A DNA stretch of 64,000 bases from Cyanobacterium aponinum PCC 10605 (GTDB lineage: Bacteria > Cyanobacteriota > Cyanobacteriia > Cyanobacteriales > Cyanobacteriaceae), in the NCBI RefSeq assembly GCF_000317675.1, contig NC_019776.1, positions 3,906,001 through 3,970,000 of the forward strand. The letters are read 5' to 3'. Positions 18,871 through 28,963 of this stretch are shown here, piece after piece. Every line of letters begins with the position of its first letter. Within the stretch, counting starts at the first letter, position 1. The translations under genes were made by a program, and so were the position numbers. The notes under the pieces are model-generated. The model did not search any database. It saw only the letters and a list, made by a program, of their open reading frames with translations, and had not been told where the DNA came from.

Positions 18871-19503
18871 ATGTTAGATTTCCCCCCTCTGGGCAAACAA
18901 AAGCCCCCCAAAATTTTCCATAAACCCTATTTGACATTTTCTTTTTTTTTGATTATTGGGTTAACTTTCGGATTGGTTAATCCTCTGGGATTGTCAAAAA
19001 ATCAGTCTTTACAAGCTCAAACTATTCCCGTAAGAGCATCTTGGCGACAAGCATCTTTTCCCGTCGAAAATTTTCAGGCTTATACTTCTGGTTTTGGCTA
19101 TCGTATTCACCCTGTCACTGGACAAAGACAATTTCACGGTGGTTTAGATTTAGCCGCTCCTCTAGGAAGTTATGTTCGTAGTTGGTGGGGAGGGCAAATT
19201 ATTCACTTATCCGATCATACTGCTTGTGGTACGATGATTAAAATTCGCTCCGGTAATTGGACTCATGTTTATTGTCACTTAATGGGCAGTGTGGAAAAAA
19301 CTTCTCAAGGATTAGTCTTGCTTGATCGTTCTGGAGGTATTATTCTTCGACAAGGGCAAAATGTCCCTTCTGGGGCAAGAATTGGTAGAGTTGGCATGAC
19401 AGGAAGAACCACAGGCCCTCATTTACATTGGGAATTAAGATATAAGGGCGATCGCATTGATCCCGCCGATATTCTTAGACAAATGTTTGCTCAAAGAACC
19501 TAA
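18871..19503 (+). CDS. M23 family peptidase (LytM-type endopeptidase)
   Basis: A 210-residue exported zinc peptidase. A hydrophobic N-terminal segment (about 25-45) ends before LQAQT, consistent with a signal peptide or membrane anchor. The catalytic domain has GFGYRIHPVTGQRQFHGGLDLAAPLG, giving the first His and Asp ligands near 90-97, and TGPHLHWELR, giving the HxH motif near 188-190. These enzymes cleave peptidoglycan cross-bridges or activate amidases. All expected zinc ligands are present, so it should be active. Confidence 0.9.
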   Translation: MLDFPPLGKQKPPKIFHKPYLTFSFFLIIGLTFGLVNPLGLSKNQSLQAQTIPVRASWRQASFPVENFQAYTSGFGYRIHPVTGQRQFHGGLDLAAPLGSYVRSWWGGQIIHLSDHTACGTMIKIRSGNWTHVYCHLMGSVEKTSQGLVLLDRSGGIILRQGQNVPSGARIGRVGMTGRTTGPHLHWELRYKGDRIDPADILRQMFAQRT

Positions 19504-19658
19504 AATATACGGCTCTATTACTTTGAGTATGTAAATTATTTGTTAACCTCAGTTTGGTTCAAGAATATCTGATAAGGTTAGGTGTGAGGTGTCAGGTTGC
19601 AGGTTGCAGGTGTTAGGGTGATGAGGAGAGAGGGTTTTGGGGTGGTAGGGGTTTTTAG
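19504..19658. repeat. Repeat cluster downstream of the M23 peptidase
   Basis: Holds a GGCTCTATTACTTTGAGTAT left-end fragment of the MITE-like family (about 19510), an inverted copy of the unit ending CGATATTCTTAAACCGAACTG (about 19545-19582; see 27712, 55074, 61853), and CAGGTNN heptamers (about 19588-19612). No gene. Confidence 0.65.
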
Positions 19659-19678
19659 CAAGGGGCTTAAGCCCCTTG
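19659..19678. repeat. 20-bp perfect palindrome
   Basis: CAAGGGGCTTAAGCCCCTTG is its own reverse complement. It could form a GC-rich hairpin but lacks a following T-run on the plus strand, so it is not called a terminator. A single copy was seen in this window. Confidence 0.85.
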
Positions 19679-19686
19679 TTTAAGTC

Positions 19687-19783
19687 AGTTCGGGTTAAGG
19701 CAATTTTATCGTTATTTCTAAGAAGAAGCTATAAGGTTTTCTGACTACGAGTTGGGATGCTTTCAGCTTATCCAAAACTCAGG
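19687..19783 (+). repeat. About 97-bp dispersed repeat, copy 1
   Basis: Starts AGTTCGGGTTAAGGCAATTT and ends TTTCAGCTTATCCAAAACTC. A closely similar copy in the same orientation lies at 57877-57971, with small differences around a central short hairpin (CTCCGACTAGGAG in that copy). No ORF. The MITE-like element copy B begins within 2 bp of its end. Confidence 0.75.
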
Positions 19784-19784
19784 C

Positions 19785-19935
19785 TAGTTAGGGTAGGCAA
19801 GAGTCAAGAGTCAATAGGGGATTATTAAATAATAATTTATAAACTTTTAGTTTTTATTTTACTATAAAACACTATTCAATAAAAGTTATAGAAGTCCTGT
19901 TTCTCTTAATCTATCATAACCACACTCTGAAGAGC
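19785..19935 (+). mobile_element. MITE-like element, copy B (left end truncated)
   Basis: Matches copy A from TAGTTAGGGTAGGCAAGAG through CACACTCTGAAGAGC but lacks the first 30-35 bp including the GGCTCT end. The truncated end joins the 97-bp repeat directly. This suggests nested insertion or recombination between repeat families. Confidence 0.65.
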
Positions 19936-19988
19936 TAAATATACTAATTTACTTATTCTAAATAAATCTAAAAAGAACAAAAAAACTA

Positions 19989-20017
19989 TTGACATAAAAA
20001 TAGAATTTTGTTATAAT
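19989..20017 (+). promoter_or_regulatory. Perfect sigma-70-type promoter
   Basis: TTGACA at 19989-19994 and TATAAT at 20012-20017 are separated by exactly 17 bp. Both hexamers match the consensus without a mismatch, which is rare. Transcription would start near 20024, about 15 nt before a hairpin, and no start codon follows. Confidence 0.7.
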
Positions 20018-20023
20018 TTACTT

Positions 20024-20090
20024 ATAAAAAGATAGCCACCCTTTTCTTGACCCGTAGCGGTCGGGGAGGGGTGGCTCTTGTCTTTTTTTT
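20024..20090 (+). ncRNA. Candidate small RNA (about 67 nt) ending in a strong terminator hairpin
   Basis: From the predicted start near 20024 the sequence reaches AGCCACCC (20034-20041), which pairs with GGGTGGCT (20069-20076), with an internal GACC/GGTC stem-loop between them, then eight T at 20083-20090. There is no ATG. The consensus promoter and terminator only about 70 bp apart suggest a short structured transcript. Alternatively the hairpin is simply a bidirectional terminator for the convergent crr6-like gene at 20101, since a T-run also follows it on the minus strand (complement of the AAAAA at 20026-20030). I could not match it to a named RNA family. Confidence 0.45.
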
Positions 20091-20100
20091 GATCGGTTAT

Positions 20101-20574
20101 TTATAGTAATTCAAACAAATAATCATCTAAGTCATAACCAAAAATTTGCGTCATCGCTTTGAGGCGAGAATTGGTTTTGATACCTTGTTGTTTTAACCAA
20201 CGATGTAGGACAAAAGTTTTTTGCATTATCCAAATATCAAGGGCTTCCTGATTATATTGTATTCCCTCACTACGATTAAACTGGTGAGGTACTAACATCG
20301 CTACATAACGAGCTAATTCTCCCTCTCTCCAATTAAGACAAAAAGGCAACCATGGATAAAGACTATCTAAAGCAATAAACCACAATCTTATTTCTGAAAT
20401 TTCTGATAATTCACGAGGATCAGTTTCCTCACGGGCATAATCAATTTGAAATGTGATTTCTTGTTCTAAATTAAGAATTTCAGAAGATTTATCAAATTTT
20501 TCAATCACATTAATAACGGGGGATAAATCTAATTGGTGAATTTGAGTTTGATTAATTTTAATAACAGTAGTCAT
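20101..20574 (-). CDS. CRR6-like NDH-1 assembly factor (DUF1817)
   Basis: A 157-residue soluble protein matching cyanobacterial CRR6 proteins, including IDYAREETDPRELSEISEIRLWFI (residues about 48-71), PWLPFCLNWREGELARYVAMLVPHQF (about 77-103) and a C-terminal GYDLDDYLFELL. In plants CRR6 helps mature NdhI during assembly of the NDH complex. A similar role in the cyanobacterial NDH-1 complex is inferred. It is convergent with the small transcript at 20024 and divergent from the HAD gene. Confidence 0.8.
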   Translation of the reverse strand: MTTVIKINQTQIHQLDLSPVINVIEKFDKSSEILNLEQEITFQIDYAREETDPRELSEISEIRLWFIALDSLYPWLPFCLNWREGELARYVAMLVPHQFNRSEGIQYNQEALDIWIMQKTFVLHRWLKQQGIKTNSRLKAMTQIFGYDLDDYLFELL

Positions 20575-27934: not shown

Positions 27935-28963
27935 CTAAACTTGGATAGAATCCAAGGCTTTTTCCACACGACGGAAATCGAATCCTAAAGCCCGTAAGGC
28001 GTGCCATAAATGTCCTTGTAAGAAGAAAAAGGCAAGGAAGAAATGAGCATTTGCTAACCAACAACGAGAAGTATGTTCTCCAAAGGGTAGCTTGACGGTG
28101 TCTGCAAAATAGGGTGTAATTCCTAATTTGACTTCCAAGGCAGGACCATAAAATTCCACAGGATAAGCAAGGGTATTCACTGCACAAAAATAAGCGGCAA
28201 CAAATCCAGCCAAAGCAATTCCCCCTAAAGAGTAAGATAAAATTGCTTCCCCTGAAAACATTAAGACTTTTCTTGCCCACTTTAGAGGAGGAACGAGAAT
28301 ATGCCAAATGCCACCAGCAATTAACATAAAACCAACATAAATGTGTCCTCCCACTAGGTCTTCTAAACTACTAATACTAGCAAAATGAGTTTGATAGCCG
28401 TAGATAGTCGCAAAGTCGAGGGTGGGATGTTCAACAAGACGTACTGTTTGGGTAGTTGCATCATAAAGTCCCCCCCAATACATAGCCTTACCCACAAGAA
28501 GTAAAGCTCCCATGCCTAAAAAGAGAAGGTGATGACCAAGAATTAAACCTAATTTAGCAGGGTCTTCCCAAGAAAAATCGAACATTTTGGCTCTTCCTTG
28601 AGCAGATTTCAAATTTTCTGGTGCTTTAAAAGTGTGGAATAATGCTCCAGCACCCAAGAAAGCAGAAGAAATTAAGTGGATCGCACCGACAACAAAATAG
28701 GGGTAAGTATCTACTATTTGACCTCCTTCACCGACTCCCCAACCGAGGGTTGCAAGGTGTGGTAAAAGAATTAAGCCTTGCTCTCCCATGGGTAAGGAAG
28801 CATCAAAGCGAGACAGTTCAAACAGAGTGAAACCTCCAGCCCAAAAAGTTGTTAGGGCGGCTTGTCCCACATGAGCGGCGATAAATAAGCCACTTTTATC
28901 AGCAAATCGGGCATTTCCTGCCCACCATTCGTATTTAACTTCAGGATTATCGTAAGTTTGCAT
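27935..28963 (-). CDS. isiA: Iron-stress-induced chlorophyll-binding protein (CP43')
   Basis: A 342-residue six-helix chlorophyll protein that forms rings around photosystem I under iron limitation and acts as antenna and quencher. It has the IsiA/Pcb start [22 protein letters not shown] (shown for residues 1-22, landmark only), chlorophyll-ligand histidines in [44 protein letters not shown] and [19 protein letters not shown], and it lacks the large loop E of CP43. Family transcription is usually Fur-controlled. No convincing Fur box is visible in the 115-bp gap upstream. Confidence 0.97.

Follow-up and report, generated by a model that had tools for sequence, protein, structure and literature searches.

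The question raised by this locus is whether the consensus promoter next to a convergent crr6-family gene, together with the hairpin that follows it, forms a small RNA gene of its own, or whether the hairpin is a terminator, the leader of a neighbouring gene or part of a mobile repeat. Positions below are those of the window, i.e. the whole stretch of 64,000 nucleotides that was analysed; copies outside it are named by genome or locus label (e.g. G036 or L044). The features of the locus are:

19511 to 19936, no strand: separate insertion of 426 bp, between 8-bp direct repeats AAATATAC
19961 to 19988, plus strand: A-rich, UP-element-like tract ahead of the -35 box, in part common to the copies
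19989 to 19994, plus strand: -35 box TTGACA, from sequence match and comparison of copies
20009 to 20017, plus strand: extended -10 box TGTTATAAT, with TATAAT at 20012 to 20017, from sequence match and comparison of copies
20024 to 20090, plus strand: predicted sRNA of about 65-67 nt, with its start placed from the -10 box
20034 to 20076, plus strand: hairpin of 18 pairs, from RNA folding and covariation
20083 to 20090, plus strand: T8 run that completes the intrinsic terminator, from sequence
20101 to 20574, minus strand: crr6-family gene, the convergent neighbour, from ORF and Pfam

The locus and its predicted transcript

The original prediction described a mismatch-free TTGACA-17-TATAAT promoter followed by a hairpin and an eight-T run, with no start codon between promoter and hairpin, and each of these elements was found as described, the spacer being 17 bp and the extended -10 reading TGT. 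Within 6 kb, 32 sites were promoter-like, and this was the only one that matched 12/12; shuffled sequences contained 28.1 such sites on average, so the weaker sites in these 6 kb carry no information. Upstream of the -35 box, A was enriched at several columns (33 copies), and this stretch looked alike by eye in copies a, b and e of the same genome. Judging from the -10 box, RNA polymerase would start about 7 nt downstream of it, near 20024, and would be stopped by the hairpin and the U run.

The predicted RNA (20024 to 20090) contains no ATG, its alternative start triplets being TTG at 20047, GTG at 20071 and TTG at 20078, and no ORF of at least 50 aa overlaps it; an ATG occurred in the corresponding region of 6 of the 36 copies compared below. 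Its predicted fold, of -34.3 kcal/mol compared with a mean of -17.45 (sd 2.79) in 200 shuffled sequences (z = -6.0, 0/200 as good), consists of a 5' arm (20034 to 20052) with one unpaired base, a CGTAGC loop (20053 to 20058) and a 3' arm (20059 to 20076), with conserved U.G wobbles. Apart from the 6-nt loop, the tail and some of the A-rich leader, nearly all of the RNA is paired, and in the window copy the leader is itself base-paired to the U tail. A covariance-model match spanned 20025 to 20091 (81.7 bits). The hairpin was missing from a simple terminator scan because the rule used there wants T at most 2 bases from the stem, and here the T run comes 7 bases after it. The neighbour, suspected beforehand to be crr6-like, was assigned to Pfam Crr6 (E = 9.6e-73), and it ends 10 bases beyond the T run.

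Copies in related genomes

Membership of a family is invisible from the window sequence alone: a 113-base query retrieved five copies from the same genome, 75-100% identical over almost the entire unit. A 141-base query matched 14 of 60 genomes, including the source genome, with several of the matches in the promoter part only. A covariance search of relatives, as suggested in the original prediction, was performed with a model of the RNA without its promoter, built from 25 copies (R1), which yielded 38 matches in 12 of the 15 genomes of the host's taxonomic family, the source genome included, at 1-9 per genome. Four copies were detected in the sister genome and nine matches, the most per genome, in G012, whose copies are alike (mean identity 0.85); the genomes with matches include Geminocystis sp. 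GBBB08 and Cyanobacteria bacterium CG_2015-22_32_23. Of the three genomes of the taxonomic family that had no match, two are 63% and 67% complete and the third (G011) is 100% complete.

Two wide genome searches were run with stricter filters, which miss weak matches: R1, applied to a sample of 291 genomes from the order that includes the 15 of the taxonomic family, found one copy outside that family, in G036 (1/276), and a looser model (R2), applied to 386 genomes of the phylum, gave matches at E <= 0.001 in 48 (6 within the taxonomic family and 42 outside), the best outside match scoring 35.4 bits. Since seven of nine inspected R2 loci outside the taxonomic family were plain terminators without the apical stem, R2 is less specific than R1. 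The other two (L082 and L086, from family f41) resemble the g4 stem; they have hairpins GGCCGTCTCTTCC...GGGAGGGGCGGCC, similar upstream sequence and about 30 bits with R2, and perhaps represent another sRNA or a conserved terminator.

The set of 36 copies used for comparison consisted of 35 of the 38 matches from the taxonomic family plus the G036 copy. G009:C2:101979 (L064), judged to be a plain terminator, and two G012 matches (on C84 and C1) without a locus were left out, as were an additional G004 match from the R2 search (34.1 bits) and, by the E-value limit, six antisense rows.

Conservation of the hairpin

In an alignment of the 36 sequences, all distinct (A4), 95.9% of the pair cells were standard pairs. 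Compensatory changes were found at 8 of the 18 stem pairs, with 28 cells changed on both sides, a level that 0/500 shuffles reached and that compares with 1-4 pairs when the partner was slid; this alignment was fitted to the structure model, and its copies are related by descent. The clearest covarying pair was an apical one that alternates between C-G, G-C and U-A (columns 27-41), and RNAalifold recovered 13 pairs of the same helix from the same alignment. In a plain MAFFT alignment of 25 copies the signal was weaker, with only two double-changed pairs, a number reached by 273/500 shuffles, and nine double-changed cells, reached by 0/500.

The strand was indicated by the fold, with a mean of -30.4 in sense versus -18.7 in antisense and the sense strand better in 36/36 copies. 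Wobbles in the stems were 171 U.G versus 22 G.U, a bias that leaves about 30% of the 634 pair cells unable to pair on the antisense strand. The apical loop was CGUAGC in 16 copies. A run of at least five T followed the stem in 29 of the 36 copies, and the seven with shorter runs were L030, L035, L047, L055, L057, L062 and L063.

Conservation of the promoter

The promoter hexamers matched the consensus at 10/12 positions or more in 31 of the 36 copies, at 11 or more in 27 and at 12/12 in 15, as compared with 1.5%, 0.1% and none of 1,708 AT-matched positions from the same loci, coding sequence included; the 36 copies share descent and are therefore not 36 independent trials. The five copies below 10/12 were G010c (7), which has no recognisable promoter, G014b and G036 (8), and G006 and G004c (9). 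The -10 box was located 13-18 nt upstream of the stem in 34/36 copies, and the promoter is of the sigma-70 type, made up of TTGACA, a spacer of 16-18 bp and TGnTATAAT. Among the 33 copies that match the -10 consensus at 5/6 positions or more, 31 had the G of the extended -10, a base not used to select the sites, and 13 of the 15 spacer columns carried less than 0.9 bit. A hairpin that is kept while the promoter is lost, the pattern named in advance as that of a pure terminator, was not what the relatives presented.

Comparison of four g1 orthologue pairs gave identities of 92, 87, 79 and 95% for the promoter, 70, 73, 86 and 83% for the upstream DNA, 95, 91, 98 and 93% for the hairpin, and 90, 94, 48 and 86% for the downstream DNA, which is partly coding. 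The hairpin was the best conserved part in two pairs, and in the other two it was equalled or exceeded by the promoter or the downstream DNA. In the pair of copy c the promoter was less conserved than the upstream DNA (79 vs 86%).

Most copies thus seem to be independent units of transcription, about 66 nt long, in which a promoter stands ahead of a covarying hairpin (34/36) and a run of at least five T comes at the end (29/36). The architecture of a stand-alone sRNA, as first proposed, is supported by the promoter matches, the covarying stem and the many neighbourhoods in which the unit occurs. We consider it very probable, from sequence comparison, that the locus is a stand-alone sRNA gene, one of five paralogues in its own genome, and a member of an undescribed multicopy family of the Cyanobacterium/Geminocystis group; this judgement concerns the gene and excludes its mode of action.

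Gene neighbourhoods and alternative explanations

The 36 copies occupy about two dozen distinct gene neighbourhoods. A Pfam scan of 43 neighbour proteins, a subset of all neighbours and five of them without a family, detected no common function and mostly ordinary genes, including cobW, mutL, HAD, LRAT, squalene-hopene cyclase, tyrosyl-tRNA synthetase, ABC transporter parts, arginase, chlH-like, uvrA and one transposase; a neighbour of the tyrosyl-tRNA synthetase type was common to g3 and g5 copies. The five copies in the source genome have different neighbours and so lie at unconserved loci. For four of them the neighbours are identical in the sister genome; at the sister site of the fifth a relic of the -35 side is present and the -10 box and hairpin are absent, which reads as loss of the copy there. 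With neighbourhoods common to the sister genome, turnover seems slow, with loss and some expansion, as in G012.

The explanation that survives best beside an sRNA gene is a dispersed terminator or insulator hairpin placed after promoter-like AT-rich DNA, the RNA itself having no function. The hairpin and T run do make a good intrinsic terminator, the upstream gene is co-oriented in 25/36 copies, and promoter identity between the g1 orthologues is sometimes not above that of the upstream flank. The window copy could also act on the other strand, where the antisense sequence has a fold of -22 kcal/mol with the T-rich stretch ATCTTTTTAT behind it; the suggestion that it additionally terminates crr6 transcription is thus a possibility for this one copy. 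A terminator, however, has no need of its own promoter, yet 31 of the 36 copies keep one at a near-fixed distance. The stem sequence, the loop and the orientation of the wobbles are conserved beyond what termination needs, the hairpin is present in the seven copies whose T runs fall short of five, and the plain terminators among the inspected R2 matches outside the taxonomic family lacked the apical stem. We therefore regard a functionless terminator as improbable.

A mobile or selfish repeat of the MITE or REP type that carries a promoter is more improbable still. It would suit the many neighbourhoods, the range of 0-9 copies per genome, the likeness of the G012 copies and the transposase gene, which lies upstream of the G005 copy (L044). 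It would also suit the surroundings of the window copy, for which flanking repeats and a mobile context had been proposed. The repeats are real and belong to the separate insertion, bounded by AAATATAC at 19503 to 19510 and 19937 to 19944; the sister genome lacks it and has a single, uninterrupted AAATATAC site, and its core of about 240 bp is present in dozens of copies in the source genome (59 among the matches listed). A genuine high-copy insertion thus adjoins the gene, but it ends before the promoter, and the sRNA unit lies outside it. Against mobility of the unit itself stand the neighbours that four of the five copies share with the sister genome, the relic of the fifth, and the aligned copies, in which no terminal repeats beyond the promoter-terminator unit were visible by eye. 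The exact pattern had no match in viral contigs, and in plasmid (50) and phage (6) records the match was to the AT-rich promoter half only, among the matches listed (20/50 and 6/6). The one candidate empty site examined for the origin of a copy was rearranged.

That the unit is the leader or attenuator of the next downstream gene is scarcely credible, given that this gene lies on the same strand in 16 copies and on the opposite strand in 17 (three of the 36, two of them uvrA cases, being uncounted), that the window copy faces the convergent crr6, and that the scanned downstream genes have no common function, although some g4 copies stand directly before a same-strand start codon. In L045 and L046 (g4) this start codon is of the uvrA type, and by their position these two copies could double as a leader there.

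Possible mode of action

The preferred reading, a stand-alone sRNA gene, predicts an abundant RNA on account of its near-perfect promoters, and several strong promoters would jointly give a high dose. The RNA might then act in trans and stoichiometrically, through its hairpin. In one mode it would form a short duplex with a target, starting at the 6-nt apical loop and extending into the stem with its many wobbles; in the other the hairpin would hold an RNA-binding protein. On general grounds we slightly prefer pairing, for which the prospects are close to even, whereas protein holding is conceivable at a more tentative level and the lack of any trans role is rather unlikely.

With a perfectly complementary strand the 5' arm would pair at -32.0, slightly better than the wobble-rich hairpin (-29.5), which means that a target could, on energetic grounds, invade the hairpin. 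The exact 13-nt complement of the 5' arm occurred 23 times in 15 genomes, of which 19 were within copies and four elsewhere (G003:C1:1912342, G006:C86:26242, G011:C1:806117 and G008:C1:1299544); these four are possibly targets and possibly chance. For the loop and the 5' arm together, the 21-nt complement with up to three mismatches occurred at 29 places in the 15 genomes of the taxonomic family, all inside copies, so the loop and 5' arm have no long target in these genomes. A scan of gene starts over 44 mechanical ORFs in the window gave no signal, with a nearly flat control. The 3' arm as an anti-SD decoy was rejected as unconvincing (-15.2 kcal/mol vs -11.6, sd 2.5, with 94/1000 shuffles as good).

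An RNA that is almost fully paired, and whose loop and 5' arm have no long target, raises the question of how a hairpin-only sRNA acts in cyanobacteria. One doubtful answer is a regulatory RNA that consists of a hairpin only and would be produced in large amounts from several near-consensus promoters, lineage-specific and expanded in copy number in one cyanobacterial family. Its U.G-rich helix would be the working part, either holding an RNA-binding protein, as CsrB and 6S RNA do, or opening only for a matching target.

Comparison with known RNAs

At the gathering score, Rfam 15 had no family that matched here; the 16 matches obtained with E up to 10 were all far below gathering scores and none was relevant. 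Elsewhere in the window, 28393 to 28570 was identified as the IsrR antisense RNA (Rfam RF01419, 106.9 bits). A literature search, which covered its sources in part, yielded no description of this sRNA family or of its transcript. If the reading is right, a group to which culturable Cyanobacterium and Geminocystis strains belong has a multicopy sRNA family that is missing from Rfam 15.

The unit shares with ordinary intrinsic terminators a G+C-rich hairpin and, in 29/36 copies, the T run, but it differs from them in its dedicated promoter and in a sequence common across loci. IsaR1 is a single-copy sRNA. Compared by description, in the accessible part of its report, it is similar in length, a cyanobacterial sRNA of 68 nt, and is induced by iron starvation (PMC6202907). 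LhrC of Listeria, compared likewise through part of its description, resembles the present sRNA family in having five nearly redundant copies per genome and a pyrimidine-rich motif (PMC4132741). In LhrC the UCCC motifs are described in loops and in a single-stranded stretch, whereas here the pyrimidine tract lies in the stem.

The motifs that characterise Yfr2 are GTGTGAGG and GAAACA. Neither was found in any of the 36 copies from -60 to +80 of the stem start, and a pattern made of them matched in 55 of 60 relatives and at three places in the source genome. One sequence there, at G000:C1:210366-210404, appears Yfr2-like by eye; it is distinct from the five copies and lies about 15 kb from copy c. 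In the accessible text on Yfr2a, this RNA of Synechocystis, of about 80 nt and with a strong promoter, is located downstream of a thioredoxin gene (PMC2662882). L036 and L040 (g3) likewise follow a thioredoxin gene of the same orientation, with no Yfr2 motif there, and the common neighbourhood is possibly a coincidence. The same text gives Yfr2 a 12-nt loop and a bulge, unlike the present sRNA family (PMC2662882), and Yfr2 is described, in the parts of the literature covered, as almost universal in cyanobacteria, in contrast to an sRNA family nearly confined to one taxonomic family. The organisation is nevertheless similar: Yfr2 (Yfr2-5) is multicopy at unconserved loci, according to the available part of its description (PMC6778093), and its short RNA likewise has a long stem with an unpaired 5' end and, in the case of Yfr2a, a strong promoter of its own. 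Sequence comparison thus suggests that the locus most likely represents a new multicopy sRNA family with an organisation like that of Yfr2.
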